Assembly (NCBI GenBank): GCA_030065615.1
Contig: JASJDR010000005.1
Location: 1 to 64,000 of the forward strand
DNA length: 64,000 nt
Origin: Xenococcus sp. MO_188.B8
GTDB taxonomy: Bacteria > Cyanobacteriota > Cyanobacteriia > Cyanobacteriales > Xenococcaceae
Direction: 5' to 3'
Shown: positions 1 through 52,622 of the stretch, in pieces
Position numbering within the stretch: the stretch's first letter is position 1
Layout of the letters: every line of letters begins with the position of its first letter
The notes under the pieces: generated by a model
Database searches by the model: none
What the model was told of the DNA's origin: nothing
Seen by the model: only the letters and a program-made list of their open reading frames with translations
Program-made: the position numbers and the translations under genes

Positions 1-893
1 TCAACTGTTGCTGCATCTAAATCTGGAAAAATTAAATCTTCAAGTCCCAACGATTTTCTTAAATTTTCTAGTTCAGTAATACTAGAAAGTTCTAGAGGAT
101 ATCCTTCTTGTTTAAGCCGTTCCTTGTATTCCTGCTCATATTTTTCAAGGTTATCTTGATACAAGGGTTTTATTGATTCCTTCTCAAATATTTTTACTAT
201 TTTTTGATCAAGATTATTTAATTCTTGCAATAATAAATTTAGTTCTTGACGGCTCTTAGAATTCAAAGGATATCCATTTTGATTAATTTTTTGTAAAAAT
301 ATATATTTGTAAATCTTTACACTTGTATCTCTTTCAAGTTTCTCTTTCTCTTGCCCAAATTGATTATCTAGATTTTCTTGCTTAGTATCATAGTCTGACT
401 TTAATTCTCTTATTTTTTCTCTTGTGTTAAGGCTTAGATTGCTTATTGATAATTCCCAAGAATCTTTAGCTTCATCATTCGAATCTAATGCAGTAGAGAA
501 TATCGGCTTAGATAACAGCTCTTCTATTAAATCTATTAGCTTTTCACTGTCTAACTTAGATTGCGAATTTTCTTTTATATAAAACGCATAGTTTGTGTCA
601 TCTGACCCTATTTGACTTATTTTTTTCTCATAATCCTCTACATCTCGTAATAATTTTTTATTATAATCATCTAGCTTTCGCAAAAAATACCCCTTACTAG
701 CCTGTTTGCGTTTTTCAAAGTCTTCTTTAAGAGTTTCTCTGTCCCTTTCGAATTTATAAATTACTTGTTTTATATGATTATACTGATGCCCTGAAAGTTC
801 AAGTTCAAAATGTTGAGTAATTTTTTGCTCAAAATTATCAATGGATAAGTCACGGCCAACATGTGTACCGCAGAAAGCTCTAATATCGTTCAT
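1..893 (-). CDS. Hypothetical coiled-coil protein, C-terminus cut by window edge
   Basis: An open frame of 297 codons begins at ATG 893 (MNDIRAFCGTHVGRDL...) and runs off the left edge without a stop. I read it by hand and found no internal stop. The protein is rich in Lys, Glu, Asp, Gln and Leu in heptad-like spacing, which suggests long coiled coils (for example KFERDRETLKEDFEKRKQ near residues 48-65). I recognise no catalytic motif, signal peptide or membrane segment in the visible part. It lies 123 bp downstream of the 150-aa gene on the same strand, so the two may be co-transcribed. The missing C-terminus could hold a recognisable domain. I do not know its function. Confidence 0.6.
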   Translation of the reverse strand, partial: MNDIRAFCGTHVGRDLSIDNFEQKITQHFELELSGHQYNHIKQVIYKFERDRETLKEDFEKRKQASKGYFLRKLDDYNKKLLRDVEDYEKKISQIGSDDTNYAFYIKENSQSKLDSEKLIDLIEELLSKPIFSTALDSNDEAKDSWELSISNLSLNTREKIRELKSDYDTKQENLDNQFGQEKEKLERDTSVKIYKYIFLQKINQNGYPLNSKSRQELNLLLQELNNLDQKIVKIFEKESIKPLYQDNLEKYEQEYKERLKQEGYPLELSSITELENLRKSLGLEDLIFPDLDAATV

Positions 894-1016
894 AATCTGT
901 CATCTTGAAATTCAAAGAGGATTTGATAGTTCTTAGCTAATTAACATCGAGTTTGTCAGAACTACTCGAGCTCTATATAGTTATTGAGCGTTAGAATTTT
1001 AGCAACCACTTGGAAA

Positions 1017-1469
1017 TCAGCCTTGCTGTTTGAAATTACCAATTTTTAAATTGCCACCAATTTCTACCTCAGTGAAAGCTTCCTGAGTAACAGAACCACC
1101 TCCCGTAGCTGTTTGTTCTACATCACCTATTTCCGCATCGCCTTTGACGTTAACACCCTTAAAAAATATGTGGTGAACCTGCTCATTTGACTCAAGCTCA
1201 TTCATGAGTATTTTCAGCTTGTGGGCAAATTCTGAATCTGATCTCATTTGCCTCTCTAAAACTTGCTGAAAAAATTTCTTGTTATCTTCTGTGGGGTTAT
1301 TCTCTGCTTGTACTAAAGCTCCTTCCATACCCTGTTGTTTGAATCTCTCACGAATCAAATTAATCAATTGACCAATCTTGTCGGAAATGGCTTCTCCCAA
1401 TTGCTCGCTACCCTTTTCAAGCGCTTTTGAGAATACTAGAGTAGCTATGGTTGTTACGATAGGTTCCAT
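1017..1469 (-). CDS. Small conserved cyanobacterial-type protein with two-rung C-terminal motif
   Basis: A 150-aa protein. Residues 1-100 look wholly helical and begin with a hydrophobic amphipathic stretch (MEPIVTTIATLVFSKALEKG). The last 45 residues are low in helix formers and hold two matching units: VNVKGDAEIGDVEQ at 106-119 and VEIGGNLKIGNFKQ at 135-148, joined by a Gly/Ser/Thr linker. The units align on V, G, D/N, IG, D/N and Q, 29 residues apart. A helical N-domain followed by a paired beta-type motif resembles proteins with HeLo/Bell-like domains and amyloid-signalling tails, but that is only an inference. Small proteins with this N-terminus seem familiar from other cyanobacteria; no function is known to me. 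It sits just upstream of the coiled-coil gene on the same strand. Confidence 0.75.
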   Translation of the reverse strand: MEPIVTTIATLVFSKALEKGSEQLGEAISDKIGQLINLIRERFKQQGMEGALVQAENNPTEDNKKFFQQVLERQMRSDSEFAHKLKILMNELESNEQVHHIFFKGVNVKGDAEIGDVEQTATGGGSVTQEAFTEVEIGGNLKIGNFKQQG

Positions 1470-1692: not shown

Positions 1693-3738
1693 TTATGTTA
1701 GTGCATAAACCAGATTTTCAGGTAGAGGACGATATTCAGCAAATTCCATCGAGAAAGTCGCCATTCCCTGAGAAAGCGATCGCAGTTCTGTAGAATAACC
1801 AAACATTTCTGCTAAAGGCACTTCCGCCCGCACAATCTCAAAATTATCTCTAGTAGAAGAACCAAGTAACAAAGCACGACGGGAGATTAATTTACCTTGT
1901 ATTTTCCCTAAAAATTCCCTTGGAGTTTCCACCTCCAATAGCATCATTGGTTCCAGGATAGTTGGTTTAGCAGCAGCAAATCCCTCTTCAAAACCAGCCC
2001 GCGCCGCAATCCGAAATGCCATTTCTGAAGAATGATTCGGATCGCAAGCACCACCTTCAATAATTACTTTGACCCCAGTAATCGGATAACCTTTAAGCCA
2101 ACCCGTATTCACCGCATCCCGAAATCCCTGCTCGCAAGCGGCAATAAACTGATTGGGAATTTCCTGCTTACTAGCCCGATTTTCCCAGACAAAACGTTCC
2201 TCAGAAGGTTCAATGCGCCCTCTAACTTGAGCAAACTGTTCGGTTTTGCCAATTTGTTGTTGCACAGTGTAATCAAAACTAGCAACTTGGGTGATGGTTT
2301 CTCGGTAGGCAACTGCTGGCGCACCTACATAAGCCTCAGCGTTGTATTCCCGTTTCATTCTTTCGAGATAGATATCGAGATGCAGTTCTCCCATCCCCGA
2401 AATTAAGGTTTTATTGGACTCTAGATCGGTAGCAATGTGCAGCGTGGGATCTTCTTTAACAAAGTGATTGAAAGCTTTCATAATGCGATCGCTGTCTTCA
2501 GCATTTTTCGGAGTAATCGCCAAAGTCATTACGGGATCAGGAGTCAAGATTCCTTCGAGAGCTAGATTGGTACCGATAGAACAGAGAGTATCCCCAGAAG
2601 CCGAATCCACACCCATCAAACCGACAATCTCTCCCACTGTTGCTGATTCTAGTTCTTGCCGTTTATCGACTTCAATTCTGACTAAACGACGCAGACGAAG
2701 CTTTTTCTGGGTGCGGGTATTAATCAAGCGATCGCCCTTATTTAATGTTCCGGCATAGATGCGAGTATAGGTAAGCTGCCCAAACTCATCATCAATTAAC
2801 TTGAAGGCTAAGGCAACGGAAGGACTATCAGCTTTGGGGTTAATTTGTACTTCTTCTTGTTTAGAAATATCGGTAGCCGTCACTAATTCCCTTTCCACAG
2901 GCGAAGGCAAATAAAGCGAGACGGCATCGAGTAAATTTTGAATACCTTTGTTTTTCAATGCCGAGCCTAACAGTACAGGAGTGAATTCTAAGCTCAATGT
3001 TCCCTGACGAATCGTATTCCAAATCAGTTGAGGTGAGATTTCTGATTCTGCTAATATTTGTTCCATCATCTCTTCCGAAAGCATCGAGACGCGATCGAGT
3101 AATTCTTCTCTAGCAGTTTGAGCTTCTTGTTGTAAATGCTCGGGAATGGGTTTACTGATTAGCTGTTCCCCATGTTTTCCCTGATAATAATGAGCCTGCA
3201 TCTCAACTAAATCGATCGCGCCTTCAAACTCATCTTCTGACCCAATGGGATATTGCAACAGTAGCGGATTTAAATCCAATTGCTCCTGTAACTCTTTCAC
3301 TACTCGAAAAGGATTTGCCCCAATGCGATCGAGTTTATTGATAAAAGCAATCCTGGGGACACGATGGCGTTTCATCTGTCGATCTACCGTAAAAGACTGG
3401 GACTGCACCCCAGCTACTCCACAGAGCACCATAATCGCCCCATCCAATACCCGTAGCGATCGCTCAACTTCGATAGAAAAATCAATATGACCAGGAGTAT
3501 CGATTAAATTAATTTGAGTATCCTGCCAAAAACAGGTCGTAGCCGCAGAGGTAATAGTAATACCTTTCTCCTTCTCCAACTCCATGTAATCCATCGTCGC
3601 ACCCTCTTCATCACCCTTTACCTCATGCATCTGATGGATTTTACCTGTATAAAAGAGAATACGCTCAGAAATAGTTGTTTTACCCGCATCAATATGGGCA
3701 GAGATCCCAATATTACGTATATTTTGGCGAGAAATCAT
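1693..3738 (-). CDS. fusA: Elongation factor G paralogue (translational GTPase)
   Basis: A 681-aa ribosomal translocase family GTPase. The G motifs are intact: AHIDAGKTT (14-22), DTPGH (80-84) and NKLD (134-137). Domains II to V follow in order, including the domain IV stretch GGACDPNHSSEMAFRIAA. EF-G promotes tRNA-mRNA translocation or ribosome recycling. The gene is solitary, not in an rpsL-rpsG-fusA-tuf cluster, so it is probably a second EF-G. The N-terminal signature HEVKGDEEGATMDYMELE followed by EKGITITSAAT is closer to the mitochondrial EF-G1/spdEFG1 style than to the usual bacterial form. The ATG at 3738 is the first start in frame. I am sure of the family and unsure of the specialised role. 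Confidence 0.92.
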   Translation of the reverse strand: MISRQNIRNIGISAHIDAGKTTISERILFYTGKIHQMHEVKGDEEGATMDYMELEKEKGITITSAATTCFWQDTQINLIDTPGHIDFSIEVERSLRVLDGAIMVLCGVAGVQSQSFTVDRQMKRHRVPRIAFINKLDRIGANPFRVVKELQEQLDLNPLLLQYPIGSEDEFEGAIDLVEMQAHYYQGKHGEQLISKPIPEHLQQEAQTAREELLDRVSMLSEEMMEQILAESEISPQLIWNTIRQGTLSLEFTPVLLGSALKNKGIQNLLDAVSLYLPSPVERELVTATDISKQEEVQINPKADSPSVALAFKLIDDEFGQLTYTRIYAGTLNKGDRLINTRTQKKLRLRRLVRIEVDKRQELESATVGEIVGLMGVDSASGDTLCSIGTNLALEGILTPDPVMTLAITPKNAEDSDRIMKAFNHFVKEDPTLHIATDLESNKTLISGMGELHLDIYLERMKREYNAEAYVGAPAVAYRETITQVASFDYTVQQQIGKTEQFAQVRGRIEPSEERFVWENRASKQEIPNQFIAACEQGFRDAVNTGWLKGYPITGVKVIIEGGACDPNHSSEMAFRIAARAGFEEGFAAAKPTILEPMMLLEVETPREFLGKIQGKLISRRALLLGSSTRDNFEIVRAEVPLAEMFGYSTELRSLSQGMATFSMEFAEYRPLPENLVYALT

Positions 3739-3900
3739 AGCATCAAATGGGCTACGTGCAGGTGTTAGAGATTAAGTATTAGGAAACAATTATCTTAATT
3801 GTGCAATATCTTGTAATTTTAAGCTTTATAGAGATTGTAATGCAGAATACCATTCTCTTGATAGGATCAAAATATAAAGAATATTGGCAAGGTATGAATT

Positions 3901-4398
3901 ATGGTTAAATTTGCCGTTGCAGTAATGAATGGAACTCAAGCACGTTTTTTCACTTTAGATTCAGCAGCAATATCTAAATATGAATCTAGTCCTAATTTAA
4001 TCGAACAACAAAGTTTATCGGATTCGACCCAAGAACTTCACGGTCAAGAACTGTGGGCAAATACCAAAACTGGACGTAACAGAGGTTCCAATGGTCAAGC
4101 TCATGGCTATGATGATCATCGCCAAAACCACAAAATCGAATTTGAAAAACGCTTTGCTCATAAGATTAGTGATGCCATGCTGGATATGATTAAGGCTCAT
4201 GATGCGAGAAAATTGATCTTAGTAGCAGAACCCAAGATTCTTGGTATTATGCGCTCCTCTATGACTGACAACTTATTTAAAACCCTAAATATCCAGGAAG
4301 TAACTAAAGATCTTTGTCATTTTAAAGTTAATCAAGTTCACGATTATCTGGCGAAAAAAGAACTATTACCAGCTTGTCAAAAAGTCTATTCTCGATAA
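3901..4398 (+). CDS. Host attachment protein family (eRF1/pelota-like fold)
   Basis: A 165-aa protein beginning MVKFAVAVMNGTQARFFTL, the start pattern of the host attachment family (Pfam PF10116). This family shares the fold of archaeal/eukaryotic release-factor domains and has been grouped with the bacterial/archaeal eRF1-like proteins. A basic, Gly/Asn/His-rich middle (residues 55-80) precedes HKISDAMLDMIKAHDARKLILVAEPKILG, a typical core. The family name comes from plant-associated bacteria; its biochemical role is uncertain, and ribosome rescue has been proposed for relatives. No operon partner: the preceding gene is divergent and a 697-bp gap follows. Confidence 0.8.
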   Translation: MVKFAVAVMNGTQARFFTLDSAAISKYESSPNLIEQQSLSDSTQELHGQELWANTKTGRNRGSNGQAHGYDDHRQNHKIEFEKRFAHKISDAMLDMIKAHDARKLILVAEPKILGIMRSSMTDNLFKTLNIQEVTKDLCHFKVNQVHDYLAKKELLPACQKVYSR

Positions 4399-5095
4399 AG
4401 CTGCAAAATTACCTTAACTATCACATAATACAGCGATCGCAAGAAACAAGCTAACCTCTCGCGAAATCAGATTTGTTTTCCGAATTAGATAATACTTATC
4501 TTCTCTAAGATCTCGTCGCAGCTCTAAACAAACTTTATCTTTTTTGCGATCGCGCAGCGCCAGCTTATGCTGATCGTGAAACGACTACCGAAGGTCTCGC
4601 GCAGCGCCTCGCTTTGCGAGATCGCGCTTTTACAAGCAAAAACTGTTAACAAGAAAGTACCATACTCAAAAGCCTGAATCTTGTTGCTCTACTAGAACGC
4701 CGCTTCATTAGTAAAATTTGACAAACTGAGCCACAAAAAGTCAACATTTCTAGGTCTTTTTCAGTCCCTGCTCTCTGCGTACCGATACCAAAATTGGCGT
4801 TGCTGATTTAAAACATGAATTAAATAGTAATACTAATATGGTTCTTGGTTTTTGGCTCTTGGCTATTAACTTTTTGAGAACATATTACTGAAGATGATAA
4901 ATTTGCTTTTCATAGCTTGATTCAGCAACGCCCCGAAATTTAATGATCGCGAAAATTAGTAGGTATAGCTCTAACTATCTGTTCGGGTTTTACTACTAAA
5001 ACCACTATGTAAAGCTCTGTTAATTTTCCTTAATTTAAATTAACATAACTTATATATTGTTAAAGATTTTTTATATGTAAAGTTGCAAGACAGCC
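4399..5095 (+). other. Intergenic region with REP-like hairpins, upstream of nblA
   Basis: No convincing gene in 697 bp. The first half carries a cluster of REP-like hairpins (annotated separately at 4545-4627). The last 120 bp before nblA is very AT-rich and should contain its promoter. A weak NtcA-like half-match (GTA N8 TTA at 5009-5022) is present but does not fit the GTA-N8-TAC consensus well, so I do not call it a site. Confidence 0.6.
4545..4627. repeat. REP-like cluster of short GC-rich hairpins
   Basis: Two hairpin units lie in tandem. One has the stem CAGC-TTAT-GCTG and the other CTCGC-TTT-GCGAG. Each is joined to the shared arm TCGCGCAGCGCC, which also appears at 35828-35932 and, degenerate, at 16276-16300. 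The GC-rich units stand out in an AT-rich gap. They look like members of a REP family mobilised by RAYT transposases such as the one at 34949-35458; that link is inferred. Confidence 0.7.
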
Positions 5096-6111: not shown

Positions 6112-6768
6112 ATGGAACTGCATCAGATTGAAACCTATCTCGAAAGCCCTAATCCTCAAAATCGCATGAAAGCGATTACCGAATTAAGGCATTACGATCC
6201 ACCATTAGTTGTTCCCTTACTCAAGCGCAGGATGTATGACCAAGAATTTATGATTCGTTCCTTTGTGGCGATGGGTTTAGGCTTTAAGCGTACAGACGAA
6301 GGTTTTGAGTTGCTAGTGAATATCATCGAAAACGACAAAGACTATAATGTCAGAGCTGAAGCAGCTAATTCTCTAGCTAAATACGGCGAACAATCCATTC
6401 CCCATCTCGTGAAATTATTTCAAAAGGACTCCCACTGGTTGGTAAGACAGAGTATTTTTGCTGCTATAGATTTAACACAATATCCTGAAATTCTCTTAGA
6501 TTTGTCTGTTTTAGGTCTTAAGGGAAATGATCCGGTAGTTAAGTTAACCGCGATCGCAAATTTAGGTCAATTAGCAGAATCAGCTCAAGCCTCATCAGCT
6601 TTAGAAATGCTTTTGGAAGCAGCTGGTTCCGAAAAAGCCATAATTCGTGCCCAAGTAGCCAGAACTTTAAAACATTTTGTAGATCCTAGAGCAGAATCTA
6701 CTCTCATGCAACTACGACAAGATTCTGATTATCGAGTAGTTGGTGCCACCTTGGAAACACTTGTCTAG
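6112..6768 (+). CDS. HEAT-repeat protein
   Basis: A 218-aa soluble protein made of about five to six HEAT-type helical hairpins, for example NPQNRMKAITELRHYDPPLV, MIRSFVAMGLGFKRTDEGFE and YNVRAEAANSLAKYGEQSIP. Each unit has the D-x-x-V-R-x-x-A-x-x-x-L-G-like spacing. In cyanobacteria, HEAT/PBS-lyase repeat proteins include phycobilin lyases (CpcE, PecE) and NblB, but this protein has no feature that assigns it to them. It probably acts as a protein-binding scaffold. It stands alone; the nearest genes are marC upstream and a rhodanese-like gene downstream. Confidence 0.85.
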   Translation: MELHQIETYLESPNPQNRMKAITELRHYDPPLVVPLLKRRMYDQEFMIRSFVAMGLGFKRTDEGFELLVNIIENDKDYNVRAEAANSLAKYGEQSIPHLVKLFQKDSHWLVRQSIFAAIDLTQYPEILLDLSVLGLKGNDPVVKLTAIANLGQLAESAQASSALEMLLEAAGSEKAIIRAQVARTLKHFVDPRAESTLMQLRQDSDYRVVGATLETLV

Positions 6769-6975
6769 AATTGCTGTTTTAGTACTTACAAATTTTATTT
6801 GCTTACAACAAGTTAAAAGAAAAACAAGTAGGGCAAAGGAATTTTATTCTTTGTCCTTTTGAATACATTAATAATTTAATTTATGTCAAACTTTCTTTAC
6901 AAAAATACATTTAATCTTAAAATATAGTTACAATATAAAAGTAAGTTTCACTAAGTAATCCTATTGAGATCGATC

Positions 6976-7353
6976 ATGAGTGTTTTCCTTAATTTGATTC
7001 CTATTCCTGCTCCTCTAAAGGCTCAATCTCGCGTTTATGACCTGAAAGAACGCCTCGACTGGGGAGAGCCAGCTTTAACCATTATTGATGTTAGAGACCG
7101 CCATCTCTTCAAAGTCAGTCATATTTTAGGAGCAGTTTCTCTGCCGATGAACGAGTTAGTCGCTCGCGCTTTAGTCAATTTTGAATTAACTCGCGACATA
7201 TATGTCTATGGTTCTACTCAAGAGCAGACTGCCATAGCTGCAGCGCAACTCCGTAGTGCTGGATTTCAAAATGTTGCCGAACTTATAGGTGGTCTGGGTG
7301 CTTGGAAAGCTTTTGACTATCCGATAGAAGGCAACTCGGCGATAGTCGCATAA
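6976..7353 (+). CDS. Rhodanese-like domain protein lacking the catalytic cysteine
   Basis: A single rhodanese fold of 125 aa: IDVRDRHLFKVSHILGAVSLP matches the CH2A region and IGGLGAWKAFDYPIEG the C-terminal signature. The active-site loop, normally C-x-x-G-x-x, reads VYGSTQEQT here, so the sulfur-carrying cysteine is absent. It probably binds a protein or phosphate-like group instead of moving sulfane sulfur. I use ATG 6976; a TTG four codons upstream is also in frame. The next gene on the same strand, a DoxX protein, starts 79 bp later, so the two could form a transcription unit. Confidence 0.85.
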   Translation: MSVFLNLIPIPAPLKAQSRVYDLKERLDWGEPALTIIDVRDRHLFKVSHILGAVSLPMNELVARALVNFELTRDIYVYGSTQEQTAIAAAQLRSAGFQNVAELIGGLGAWKAFDYPIEGNSAIVA

Positions 7354-7432
7354 ATATTTACTTGACTTGTGTTAAATCCCATAAGCACAAGTCTATAAAT
7401 CAAATACCCACTAGACTCCCTCAGAATTTTCT

Positions 7433-7972
7433 ATGTCTCCTAACAAAATACTAACCACGATCATTAGACCAAATTACAGTCCAAATTTCTGGAGTCAGAC
7501 AAGCTGGGCTATATTTAGAGCCGTTGTCGGAATTATGATGATCCACAACGGTCTAGATAAATTATCAAATATCGAAAGCTTTGCTGAAGCTTATGTAGCC
7601 TATCTTGGTCTGCCATTCCCTATTTTATTGAGCTATGTAGCTGCCTATACTGAGTTAATTGGTGCGCCTTTAGTAGCTCTTGGTTTGTTGACTAGACCAG
7701 CGGCATTGGGCTTATTTGCTACCATGTGTGTTGCAATATACCATCATATCTCCGTAGCTGGTTTAAGCGTTTCCTATTTAGAATTAGCAGCTATCTATGC
7801 AGCTTGTTTTCTCTTCTTGCTAATCAATGGAGCTGGCTTATTTTCTACCGATGCATTACTTGCTAATTGGCTTGATAGTAGTACTCTATCTCAAAAAGCC
7901 AAGCAAATTATGTTGTTAGAAAAAAGTTATCAAGCGTCTAATACAGCAACAACTTTGAGCAATAAAGAGTAA
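7433..7972 (+). CDS. DoxX family membrane protein
   Basis: A 179-aa protein with four hydrophobic segments. The first contains RAVVGIMMIHNGLDKLSN, the usual DoxX start, and AAYTELIGAPLVALGLLTRP is the family core. DoxX-like proteins are small inner-membrane proteins linked in various bacteria to quinol oxidation, thiosulfate or redox homeostasis; the specific reaction is unknown here. The rhodanese-like gene just upstream could fit a sulfur or redox theme, although that rhodanese lacks its cysteine. Confidence 0.85.
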   Translation: MSPNKILTTIIRPNYSPNFWSQTSWAIFRAVVGIMMIHNGLDKLSNIESFAEAYVAYLGLPFPILLSYVAAYTELIGAPLVALGLLTRPAALGLFATMCVAIYHHISVAGLSVSYLELAAIYAACFLFLLINGAGLFSTDALLANWLDSSTLSQKAKQIMLLEKSYQASNTATTLSNKE

Positions 7973-8149: not shown

Positions 8150-8932
8150 TTAATCAAGAAAATTCTGAGAATGAATAATTTTTTCAAGTTGGATCTCCCT
8201 CTCCAGAAGGCAGGCATGACCGCTCTCTGGAAGCAAAATTTTCATAGCATTGGGCAAATAGCGAGCTAGTCTATTTGCTTCAGTTACAGAAGGCAAAAGT
8301 CGATCAGCCGCCGAAGCTATAATCAAAACAGGCTGAGATACTTTATGTAAAGGCATTTCATCGAGACGAAAATCATTGAGTAAGGAGAGCCGCCAAGCAG
8401 CACTATTCGCTGTCACCGACTGCATAGCCGTCAGTAATGAGTTTCGATTTTGAGATGATATGCGCTCCGAAGCAATGAGAAACGGTAATAGCCCGATAGT
8501 CGAAACTTGGTAAAAAGGTTCTGGCAGCCATTGAACAATATTTGAACCCCAACCCATAATTAGTTGACGAGAAAAGCAAGAGGCAGAATTGATTAAAATC
8601 ATGCGGTCAAATAACTCATTCGAGTAAGCTGCTAGTTTTAGAGCTAGACACCCACCAAACGACTCCCCACAAATGTAAACAGGTCGAGAACCTCCTAATT
8701 GCTGCTCAGCTTGGATCAGATCTGCCGTCTGTTCGACTAAACCCGACCAGTCACTTAAGTCATCTGCAGGAATGGACAAACAACGGACATCGAAAAGTCT
8801 TTCTAGTCCTTTTAACTGAGTTTTTAGTAATTGTCCAGTACCATCCATCCCTGGCAAAAAAACAAATAAAGGATAGGTTACTTTTAGCTCCCTTGGCTTC
8901 AAAAAGCGCAAGCGTTTTTTAAAAATTGACAT
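8150..8932 (-). CDS. Alpha/beta hydrolase, phytyl-ester-synthase N-domain type
   Basis: A 260-aa alpha/beta hydrolase. The oxyanion strand PLFVFLPGMDGTG (21-33) is followed by the nucleophile elbow GESFG with Ser91, an Asp in ASAADRLLPS near 211 and a His in ESGHACLL near 240: a complete triad. The opening LFVFLPGMDGTG matches the esterase/lipase/thioesterase half of plant plastid phytyl ester synthases (PES1/PES2). The gene starts 13 bp after the acyltransferase gene on the same strand, so the two form an operon that reproduces as two genes the fused plant enzyme. Substrate is inferred: acyl groups from lipids or acyl carriers. No signal peptide. Confidence 0.85.
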   Translation of the reverse strand: MSIFKKRLRFLKPRELKVTYPLFVFLPGMDGTGQLLKTQLKGLERLFDVRCLSIPADDLSDWSGLVEQTADLIQAEQQLGGSRPVYICGESFGGCLALKLAAYSNELFDRMILINSASCFSRQLIMGWGSNIVQWLPEPFYQVSTIGLLPFLIASERISSQNRNSLLTAMQSVTANSAAWRLSLLNDFRLDEMPLHKVSQPVLIIASAADRLLPSVTEANRLARYLPNAMKILLPESGHACLLEREIQLEKIIHSQNFLD

Positions 8933-8945
8933 AAATAATTTGAAG

Positions 8946-9671
8946 TTAATGGCAGCCTTGATGCAATAGTTCAGAAATTTGGTGCGAGCAAAATTGAGTT
9001 AATTCTTTTGCTTGTAAGCTTCCTCGCCTTCCTTGATACTGTTGCCGTTCAGCTTCAGTAATCCAGATGGGACGACCAAACAAGATATTAACTCTACGAT
9101 AAACAATCACTGGATGCCAACCCCAGGAGTCAAAGAGCGGTTCAGACGGATCAAATAAACGGAAAAGCTTTAGAGGAGCCACCGAATGCCTTTTCTCGTC
9201 TATTGAGGCGATCGCAACTGGTAAAATTGCTAACTCCTGAACTGGTACCCGAAAGGCTAAATGGGCAAACCCCCGATGAAAAGGACTGAGCTGATTAGGT
9301 GGTTTAACTTGAACCATGGGCTGTGCTCCTTCGGGGAAAATTCCCACTGTTTGGGAAGACTGCAAAAAATTAGTTGACTGCCGAAAAAAGTTATTTTGTC
9401 GCTGGCTAGGAGCATCAAGGGGAAAAGCCCCCATGATCTCAATCATCTCCCTTACAACGGGAACTTGACTCATGAAACGATGGCAAACAAAGCGTACGGA
9501 ACGATTTATTACCGTCATCAACAGTGGTGCATCAAGAAAGCTGCGATGGTTGCTGACAACTAGGACTCTCTTAGTGGCCGGAACTCTTTCGAGGTAATGT
9601 ATGGATGGTTTAATTCCAAAGGCATTTAGTAAGCTATGGGACAAGTTCAAGGGACTGTCAAAGAACATCAT
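8946..9671 (-). CDS. Lysophospholipid/DGAT2-type acyltransferase
   Basis: A 241-aa acyltransferase of the LPLAT superfamily. The catalytic H-x4-D block is NHRSFLD (41-47, His42 and Asp47) and the second block is FPEGAQPM. Relatives move fatty acyl groups to glycerolipids, diacylglycerol, phytol or plastoquinol. The combination with an alpha/beta hydrolase directly downstream (13-bp gap) points to the phytyl ester synthase/diacylglycerol acyltransferase group known from plastids and from Synechocystis. A role in phytyl ester, triacylglycerol or acyl-plastoquinol synthesis is likely but inferred. It may be peripheral to membranes; there is no clear membrane span. Confidence 0.86.
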   Translation of the reverse strand: MMFFDSPLNLSHSLLNAFGIKPSIHYLERVPATKRVLVVSNHRSFLDAPLLMTVINRSVRFVCHRFMSQVPVVREMIEIMGAFPLDAPSQRQNNFFRQSTNFLQSSQTVGIFPEGAQPMVQVKPPNQLSPFHRGFAHLAFRVPVQELAILPVAIASIDEKRHSVAPLKLFRLFDPSEPLFDSWGWHPVIVYRRVNILFGRPIWITEAERQQYQGRRGSLQAKELTQFCSHQISELLHQGCH

Positions 9672-10069
9672 TATTCTATTGAGTTGGTTTCATCGGTTGT
9701 AGTTAAAGAGAAATTTCTGAGCGACTTAAATATAACTTAACATTAATTCACGAGTTGACATAAGAATCATAATCGAGATTAAATACTCTCAAGAGGAACT
9801 AGTTGCTTAAAACGATGTTTATCTCATTGAGAGCTAGGATGACAACTTGCTACTCAGATCAAAAGACTAGTGCCGCTGCGCGTAAGTCCCGTCCCATCTA
9901 CGTGGGATAATATCAAGCGAGATTAGATCAAAAGTCACTTGTCCTCGCTAATCCTCGAAGGAGAAGCAATGGAGAAAAGTCTTTTAGAGCAAAGAGTTCA
10001 AGCTTTTTGAACGAGTGCTGTATTTACGCCTACTTCTACTGAAGAGAAAAACCTATATCAGTAACTACC
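9672..10069 (+). other. Intergenic region upstream of dxr
   Basis: No clear gene in 398 bp between the divergent acyltransferase and dxr. A 13-codon frame starting at 9969 (MEKSLLEQRVQAF) has a good Shine-Dalgarno (AAGGAG) but no known relative; it may be a leader peptide or chance. A small hairpin (TCCCA-TCTACG-TGGGA) lies near 9892-9907. Promoters for both neighbours should be here. Confidence 0.4.
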
Positions 10070-51188: not shown

Positions 51189-51266
51189 TTCACCTAAAAA
51201 CTTTTGCTCTTTGCTCCCAAGTCAAGTTATACTCCAATCGGATTAACCCTAAGCAATCTAAAAACC

Positions 51267-52622
51267 ATGGTAGCGGTAGCAATTTTAGCAGCAGGGCGCG
51301 GAACTCGGATGAAATCCGACCTTCCCAAGGTCTTACATTCCCTTGCCGGAAGATCACTAGTAGAACGAGTCATCGATAGTTGTCAATTATTAGAACCAGA
51401 CAAAAAAATTGTCATTATTGGTTATCAAGGAGTGAAAATTCAACAAGAGTTGAGTCATCTCGACGGACTAGAATTTGTCACTCAAACTGAACAATTGGGA
51501 ACAGGTCACGCAGTACAACAATTAATTCCCTATCTACAAGATTATCAAGGGGATTTGTTAGTTTTAAATGGAGATGCTCCCTTACTACGGAAAATCACCT
51601 TACATCAATTAGTCAAAACCCATCAACAAAGCGGAAATGCTGCCACTTTATTGACTGCTCATTTACCTAATCCCCAAGGTTATGGTCGAGTATTTTGCGA
51701 TCGCAATAACCTGGTTAGTCAGATTATTGAAGATCGAGATTGTACCCCCGCACAAAAGCAAAATCGACGAGTTAACGCCGGGATTTATTGTTTTAAATGG
51801 CAAAAATTAGCTCAAGTCTTACCCCAGCTTTCGACCAATAACGATCAAAAGGAATATTATCTCACTGAAGTAGTTGGTTATCTTGACCAAGTCATGGCAG
51901 TCGATGTTGCCGATCATTTGGAAATCACAGGGATCAATGATCGTCAACAACTATCTACTGCCTATAATATCTTGCAAACCAGGATTAAAGATTATTGGAT
52001 GAAAGCAGGAGTGATGATGATTCAACCAGAAACCATCACCATCGACGAAACAGTTCAGTTAGAACCAGACGTAATTATCGAGCCACAAACCCATATTCGG
52101 GGTCATACTCTGATCGCCACAGGTAGTCATATTGGGCCGGGAAGTCTGATTGACAATAGTAAGATAGCCAGTAATGTGACTGTCCTTTATTCCGTAGTTA
52201 ATAACTCAGAAGTTGCCGAAAATACAACTGTAGGGCCCTATGCTCATTTACGGGGAGCTGCGAAAGTTGGGGCTAATTGTCGGATTGGTAATTTTGTAGA
52301 GATTAAAAAAAGCAGTTTAGGAGACAATACCAATGCGGCTCATCTCTCCTATCTTGGAGATGCCACTCTCGGTGATCGCGTTAATATAGGGGCAGGAACT
52401 ATTACAGCTAATTATGACGGGATTAGAAAACATCAAACAATCATTGGTAGTGGTACCAAAACAGGCTCTAATAGCGTTATGGTAGCACCCCTTACCTTAG
52501 GAGAAAATGTTACCGTAGCCGCGGGTTCTGTAGTTACAAAAGACGTTCCGCCCGATGCCCTAGTCATCGCCCGTGCCAGGCAAAAGGAAATACCTGACTG
52601 GCAACAAAACAGTAAACAGTAA
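51267..52622 (+). CDS. glmU: GlmU: GlcNAc-1-P uridyltransferase / GlcN-1-P acetyltransferase
   Basis: A 451-aa bifunctional enzyme that makes UDP-GlcNAc for peptidoglycan and lipopolysaccharide. The N-terminal pyrophosphorylase has [20 protein letters not shown] and VLNGDAPLL; the C-terminal left-handed beta-helix contains [20 protein letters not shown] and [11 protein letters not shown] (acetyltransferase His and trimer contacts). I take ATG 51267 since the longer frame from 51204 adds 21 non-conserved residues. Follows the HD-GYP gene by 78 bp. Confidence 0.96.

Follow-up and report, generated by a model that had tools for sequence, protein, structure and literature searches.

Bacterial Bell/NLR amyloid signalosomes with BASS motifs were reportedly described by Dyrka et al. 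in 2020, and the fungal effector HET-s forms a two-rung solenoid. Such Bell/NLR signalosomes with BASS motifs are known from several accounts, cyanobacteria included, according to excerpts of PMC7889193, PMC8086366 and PMC9815663, and the first of these excerpts likens the Bell domain to HeLo and pictures it as a small bundle of helices, one of them hydrophobic (PMC7889193). BASS4 is stated in an excerpt of PMC8086366 to be "relatively often found repeated" on the Bell side, and in the HET-s/NWD2 pair the repeats R1-R2 are placed on the effector and R0 on the NLR (PMC7889193, in excerpt). For BASS3, prion-like foci were looked for with GFP fusions in Podospora (PMC9815663, in excerpt). The same excerpted review raises the question whether NLR-independent signalling amyloids occur in fungi and bacteria (PMC7889193).

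The window, i.e. the whole stretch of 64,000 nucleotides of Xenococcus sp. MO_188.B8 analysed here, was found to contain a gene pair resembling the Bell/BASS systems in its small helical effector, its hydrophobic helix, its short beta motif shared between the C-terminal end of the effector and the N-terminal end of the neighbour's product, its occurrence in a cyanobacterium and the repetition of the motif on the Bell side. It differs from them in a partner that shows no NTPase and is probably of GUN4-TerB-DUF1232 type, and the window motif is compared with BASS4 in its repetition on the Bell side only. HET-s/NWD2 is approached in the two pseudo-repeats on the effector, the single one on the receptor, the adjacent genes and the predicted two-rung solenoid, whereas the repeat sequence of the window is different and its helical domain gave no Pfam match, HeLo included.

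The Bell-type effector gene (1017..1469, minus strand) was found to contain an ATG start and a clean frame of 150 codons in the ORF list of the window, and its product of 150 aa to contain a helical N-domain followed by the presence of a two-copy C-terminal motif (AlphaFold2 mean pLDDT 76). The first copy, R1, is GVNVKGDAEIGDVEQ (residues 105-119; 1113..1157, minus strand; score 32.0 with the profile from other loci, with AlphaFold2 strands) and the second, R2, is EVEIGGNLKIGNFKQ (residues 134-148; 1026..1070, minus strand; pooled profile 33.0). Within them VNVKGDAEIGDVEQ begins at residue 106 and VEIGGNLKIGNFKQ 29 residues further on, at residue 135, and this pair is the top 15-mer self-match of the protein. 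The self-match score was equalled by 18 of 200 shuffles of the whole effector, and was reached by 122 of 200,000 shuffles of the second copy alone. Taken alone, the repeat within this single protein is only suggestive; it becomes convincing because the two-copy relatives all show exactly two C-terminal copies with the pooled profile. The first-pass annotation had claimed two motif copies 29 residues apart after a helical N-domain, and this was borne out (residues 106/135; AlphaFold2 helices within residues 2-93). No family for the effector was found in Pfam and NCBIfam, nothing usable was returned by a PDB sequence search, and in viral contigs 161 pattern matches gave 0 confirmed relatives. 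A PADLOC match to JetD (E 0.0067) was treated as noise.

The helical N-domain (1191..1466, minus strand) was found to contain helices at residues 2-17, 26-45, 49-57, 61-77 and 79-93 by DSSP of the AlphaFold2 model, with pLDDT below 50 at residues 20-22. The model, built with a 20-sequence alignment, contained these five helices up to residue 93, with a mean pLDDT of 76 and tail blocks at 59-77. The N-terminal helix PIVTTIATLVFSKAL (residues 3-17; 1419..1463, minus strand) is the most hydrophobic 15-mer of the effector, with a modest Kyte-Doolittle mean of 1.53, and is a candidate for membrane insertion. The most hydrophobic 15-mer was found to begin within residues 1-23 in 19 of 20 two-copy effectors, the exception being L119, whose ORF as called lacks the N-terminus. 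The first helix may be pictured as the part acting on the membrane, and the window effector, as a small helical bundle with a hydrophobic helix, is likened to the published Bell domains by description. Foldseek and VIA-align gave generic helical bundles only for the N-domain. Homology was drawn neither to the bundle of MLKL (Z 3.6) nor to the coiled coil of Rx (Z 3.3), as both sit among many unrelated bundles. The PDB sequence search yielded no solved relative of the helical domain.

The family was searched in the same order (148 genomes), in the phylum (386 genomes) and in GTDB contigs. The helical N-domain was matched in 29/148 and 61/386 genomes, the window's own included, and named contigs gave 58 loci, the closest being Richelia sp. 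SL_2_1 (60% identity), followed by a Xenococcaceae MAG (59%). The N-domain was found in 105 of the 110 loci examined, with 98 distinct proteins, and the C-terminal tails were of several unlike types. From these 98 proteins 20 two-copy loci, the window included, were chosen by eye on their tails; the flanking genes of the first ten loci were already known when the set was chosen. L046 (broken tail), L116 (unclear copies) and L121 (which repeats L042) were left out, and L110, below the locus threshold, served for a later check only. The motif columns were aligned by hand, and one residue of the first copy of L042 was dropped to fit 15 columns. Exactly two C-terminal copies were found in 19 of 19 scored Bell-side proteins (18 relatives and the window), against one weak motif match in 4 of 78 other Bell-family proteins and two copies in 0 of 78, with a pooled profile that includes the repeats it scores and shows copy number, not independent detection.

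In a leave-one-locus-out test, a profile of the Bell-side repeats of the other loci was used to score the first 70 residues of flanking ORFs of at least 80 aa. A flanking gene with an N-terminal motif was found in 18 of the 19 other two-copy loci, with scores of 12.6-30.1 and at a distance of 4 to 432 bases from the Bell gene, and the remaining 164 flanking ORFs across the 20 loci reached a maximum of 6.8. L133 failed the test (best flanking ORF 5.5) and was counted as a miss. With the pooled profile, exactly one copy per whole protein was found in 18 of 18 partners, and the window partner likewise contained one. The arrangement is 2:1 in copies of the motif, with two at the effector C-terminus and one at the partner N-terminus. 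This placement, the gene neighbourhood and the conservation across loci are established at the level of sequence. By BLOSUM62, R0 was nearer to R2 than to R1 in 16 of 18 cognate pairs, with one tie, and the R2-R0 score had a mean of 31.2 over the 18 pairs; this mean was matched by shuffled pairings in 211 of 20,000 cases, a weak test, since related loci share both halves.

Of the 18 rows of the partner profile, 11 stem from the genomes in which co-occurrence was counted, and these counts were therefore not taken as independent proof. Genome G299, absent from all profiles, was found to contain three partner-profile matches. Two stand at the head of NB-ARC-TPR genes that have a Bell-family gene with a two-copy-like tail nearby and a DUF29 gene in between; for the third (contig C32) no Bell-family gene was found within the 13 kb fetched. 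Three further genomes (G217, G297 and G401) contained partner-motif matches without a strong two-copy Bell match in the genome. As a separate observation, a gene of 141-143 aa adjoins the Bell gene in L109, L110, L116 and L208, standing between Bell and NLR where both are seen; it is DUF29 by Pfam in L110, and those of L109, L116 and L208 are alike by eye.

The gene downstream of the window effector was found to contain at its head a divergent copy, R0, overlooked in the first-pass annotation. R0 is the single copy GTHVGRDLSIDNFEQ (partner residues 9-23; 825..869, minus strand) and is without the usual N-[VL] start. With the Bell-side-only profile it scored 2.9, level with the 2.8 of an unrelated runner-up ORF and exceeded by 25 of 1214 background ORFs, which counts against the pairing; three further tests speak for it. 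With the profile of the 18 partner copies it scored 11.9, and four of 1214 background ORFs were higher, namely one duplicate of a known partner, those of L110 and L133, which neighbour two-copy Bell genes, and one unrelated ORF; the leave-one-out scores of 17 of the 18 known partners lie above this value. With R2 as the query, R0 scored 31 by BLOSUM62, near the mean of cognate pairs; of 1232 background N-termini, 6 scored as high, and each of these heads a partner gene of another two-copy locus.

A profile of N-termini taken from partners in other organisms was run in six frames against the whole genome (8,263,880 bases). The best match genome-wide was R2 of the window effector (E 3.9e-4), followed by an NB-ARC-TPR protein on contig C86 (E 0.056), R0 of the downstream gene (E 0.069) and, in tenth place, R1 (E 6.6). 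The value for R0 is weak and not significant without the adjacency argument, and the match carries weight because it is located at the head of the adjacent gene. In the window itself, among 52,549 15-mers in six frames, R0 was outscored against R2 by nothing but the repeat itself and a segment within the ORF at 51204-52622 (plus strand), the segment scoring 38 and R0 31. This ORF contains nucleotidyl-transferase and hexapeptide-repeat matches, with the segment in the Hexapep region, and we take it to be possibly GlmU, as a guess; because of the hexapeptide-repeat matches the segment is read as a probable beta-helix rung. The matching partner motif expected in the first-pass annotation is present in 18 of 19 other loci and, as the divergent R0, in the window neighbour, so that the outcome of no motif in any partner did not occur; the annotation had also looked to the N-terminus of NLR/STAND proteins elsewhere in the genome, where the motif is found on C86. 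Its choice of the downstream gene as the partner is supported by R0; that this partner would be no evident NLR was not anticipated there.

We consider it probable, with good confidence, that the two window genes are the effector and the receptor of a bacterial system of the amyloid-signalosome type. The effector tail of 57 aa would consist of two pseudo-repeats of ~20 residues, R1 and R2, and the product of the adjacent gene would be the receptor or sensor half, with one R0 at its N-terminus. On detection of a cue the sensor would oligomerise, the clustered R0 copies would take the fold of a beta-solenoid rung, and the effector's R1-R2 would adopt it too, with the R0 rungs as template. Templating would cluster the helical domain and free the hydrophobic helix, which would damage the membrane, and the cell would be killed or arrested. 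The amyloid state, the templating, the membrane action and the cell death are here proposed by analogy with the described signalosomes. Besides the low R0 scores and the miss in L133, several results count against this reading: the modest hydrophobicity of the first helix, the absence of a significant Foldseek match, the motif matches in G217, G297, G401 and on C32 of G299 that lack a fitting Bell gene, and the likeness of the motif to hexapeptide repeats.

The predicted fold of the tail bears on this reading and on its chief rival. In the effector model the strand pattern EEEE--E--EE---EEE--EEEE was found twice, 29 residues apart, and AlphaFold2 of the tail alone gave the same two-fold pattern with a mean pLDDT of 84, so that the tail is, as a predicted single chain, a two-rung beta-solenoid with one rung per pseudo-repeat. 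This prediction would fit a HET-s-like amyloid protomer and equally an ordinary small beta-solenoid. No match at E <= 0.001 was found by Foldseek for the whole effector model or for the tail, and no structural match with Z >= 2 was found for the tail alone among the 11 chains compared. The tail could then be an ordinary small beta-solenoid serving stoichiometric docking or oligomerisation, with R0 capping it or stacking as a third rung and with no self-propagating amyloid. Such docking is in keeping with the compact two-rung solenoid that AlphaFold2 gives even for a single chain, with the few and weak hits that Foldseek gave for the tail (none better than E 2.1), which include the beta-helices of bactofilin, an FHA secretion domain and an antifreeze protein, and with the apparent resemblance of the motif to hexapeptide beta-helix repeats. 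However, HET-s is itself a two-rung solenoid, and the fold cannot separate the readings; moreover, the terminal position, the 2:1 arrangement and the pairing of effector with STAND protein agree with the amyloid signalosomes as published in excerpts of PMC7889193 and PMC9815663. We regard docking without amyloid as rather unlikely.

A second rival places the true receptor elsewhere. Contig C86 of the same genome contains an 885-aa NB-ARC-TPR protein (L060:4970-7627, plus strand) with NLQDRYIKSGDIAQ at its N-terminus; no two-copy Bell gene was found near it in ~17 kb, and the sole Bell-family gene there has a different tail. The protein is a candidate trans partner of the window effector. If it acted in trans on a genuine Bell-type effector, the adjacent R0 would be a decayed or chance copy, and the slightly better E value of the C86 protein (0.056 against 0.069), its NB-ARC and TPR regions and the different tail of the only Bell-family gene around it agree with that. 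Against it, the window pair has the adjacency and strand order of the other loci, its R0-R2 similarity equals the cognate mean, and the partner-side profile gives 11.6 for C86 versus 11.9 for the adjacent gene; both receptors could also act on a single effector, a possibility suggested by L212 with its two STAND genes that bear the motif. This trans-only arrangement is judged improbable, and the adjacent gene is retained as the partner in the preferred amyloid-signalosome reading. The genome contains in addition a second Bell-type gene with a different tail on contig C135 (L061:2039-2440), beside an NB-ARC-TPR gene (2511-4982) whose N-terminus resembles the adjoining Bell tail by eye; this pair is a possible separate channel in the same genome.

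The open-ended coiled-coil gene reported downstream in the first-pass annotation is real. The partner ORF (3..893, minus strand) was found to contain its first 297 aa, coiled-coil-like and followed by the presence of segments that recur on contig C338, and it is cut by the contig end: base 1 of the window is also base 1 of contig C314, which leaves the frame open. Pfam gave insignificant matches only for this piece. The first 62 bases of the window (1..62) equal the last 62 of contig C338 with one mismatch, and order and strand agree. The open ORF of 823 aa on C338, in the same genome, was found to contain two GUN4 stretches, TerB and DUF1232, and shares segments of 38-45% identity with the partner piece. 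From the 62-base overlap and the similar segments, on which the continuity rests, the C338 ORF is probably the rest of the partner gene, which would have ~1,100 aa in total with the order GUN4-GUN4-TerB-DUF1232. Neither a Pfam NTPase nor a Walker A pattern was found in the 297-aa window piece or in the 823-aa C338 ORF. Two PADLOC labels for the C338 ORF were rejected, "PD-T4-6" with its best stretch in the GUN4 part and "BnzA" with its best stretch in the TerB region. The TerB-DUF1232 end was matched in 33 of 243 other genomes, most of those listed over the DUF1232 part only.

That the helical domain is an adaptor or scaffold, with the TerB/DUF1232 end of the partner as the true output, is agreeable with the location of DUF1232 inside a hydrophobic stretch near the C-terminus of the putative partner and with the helical domain having no solved relative found, but the window protein fits what excerpts of PMC7889193 say of Bell domains, which are likened there to HeLo and pictured as small bundles of helices with a hydrophobic one among them, and many partners elsewhere are sensor-like (NTPase with TPR or HEAT) with no evident Pfam effector domain, and we hold this reading to be quite doubtful.

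The partners of the other loci were of several types. The Pfam cut-off for NB-ARC or NACHT was passed by 10 of the 19 other partners, that for NB-ARC by eight (L040, L041, L043, L104, L105, L106, L109 and L160) and that for NACHT by L119 and L120, both with HEAT repeats. L107, a fragment, and L133 contained NTPase matches under these cut-offs; in L133 the neighbour has 641 aa, with a weak motif only and with its NTPase matches under the NACHT cut-off. The partner of L051 (1604 aa) contained AAA and weak STAND matches. The partners of L044 (E 4.6e-42, best stretch 53-1369) and L050 (E 4.5e-47, best stretch 51-554) were found to be Avs2-like by PADLOC PDLC02164, with the match running from about profile position 173 onward and the first ~170 positions unmatched, the motif being present there instead. 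These first ~170 positions of the Avs2 model presumably hold the effector domain. The two partners thus resemble Avs2 over the STAND and C-terminal parts of PDLC02164 and differ from it in carrying a short motif in place of the first ~170 profile positions, with a Bell gene adjoining, whereas the window's own partner is not Avs2-like. The partner in L108, a fragment, has 59% identity to the L050 partner over its head. This Avs2-like partner gene (L108:8319-8648 and 8802-10007) was found to be broken near an OrfB_IS605 / Cas12f1-like TNB gene.

A Walker A pattern was absent from the partners of L047, L053 and L042; at its end the L053 partner has an ARC6-like IMS domain and the L042 partner a PDZ domain. 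Four of the 20 partners (L042, L047, L053 and the two pieces of the window's) contained neither a Walker A pattern nor a Pfam NTPase, and a fifth without Walker A, L108, is the transposon-broken Avs2-like fragment. L048 contains a receptor of the L047 and L053 type (34-41% identity), and its Bell tail shares, by eye, a different motif with a small ORF immediately ahead of that receptor, so that motifs and receptor types seem to be swapped independently of each other.

Two further arrangements were observed beside these. L212 (genome G099) contains a single two-copy Bell gene beside two adjoining STAND genes that carry the motif. One of these is Avs2-like; the other (L212:1334-6202, minus strand) is of the TIR-motif-STAND type, with a TIR domain followed by one motif copy NAQVSGNLTTGDIIQ and then the STAND NTPase. 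A caspase-domain protein and its neighbour share another short motif by eye in L211 (4047-5015, minus strand, and 6176-7621, plus strand) and L210 (2099-3073, plus strand, and 18-923, minus strand); the caspase protein ends in NINEA.GIHIGD and the neighbour contains GRDIHIGD near its N-terminus, with the caspase domain found by Pfam in L211 only and a weak EAD10 match at the end of the caspase protein.

Bell-NLR pairs with BASS motifs in cyanobacteria are already known, as is the repeated BASS4 on the Bell side. What looks new, among the literature matches listed, is the range of partners headed by the motif, i.e. GUN4-TerB-DUF1232, PDZ, P-loop-less and Avs2-like sensors; the literature search found no paper joining Avs2 and amyloid, and four joining GUN4 and amyloid, none of them concerned with this subject by its title. 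We put forward, tentatively and as a possibility short of an even chance, an NLR-free bacterial amyloid signalling in which the carrier of R0 would be a GUN4-TerB-DUF1232 protein that may sense tetrapyrroles or stress and that would drive a HET-s-like two-repeat death effector, and in which the motif would be a general connector of one killer to unrelated sensors, the Avs2-like and PDZ proteins included. The four of 20 partners without NTPase make the question of NLR-independence testable with named gene pairs, and further pairs can be sought simply by the 2:1 ratio of copies. Through the motif-headed Avs2-like partners, amyloid signalling would be tied to phage sensors of a class already known.
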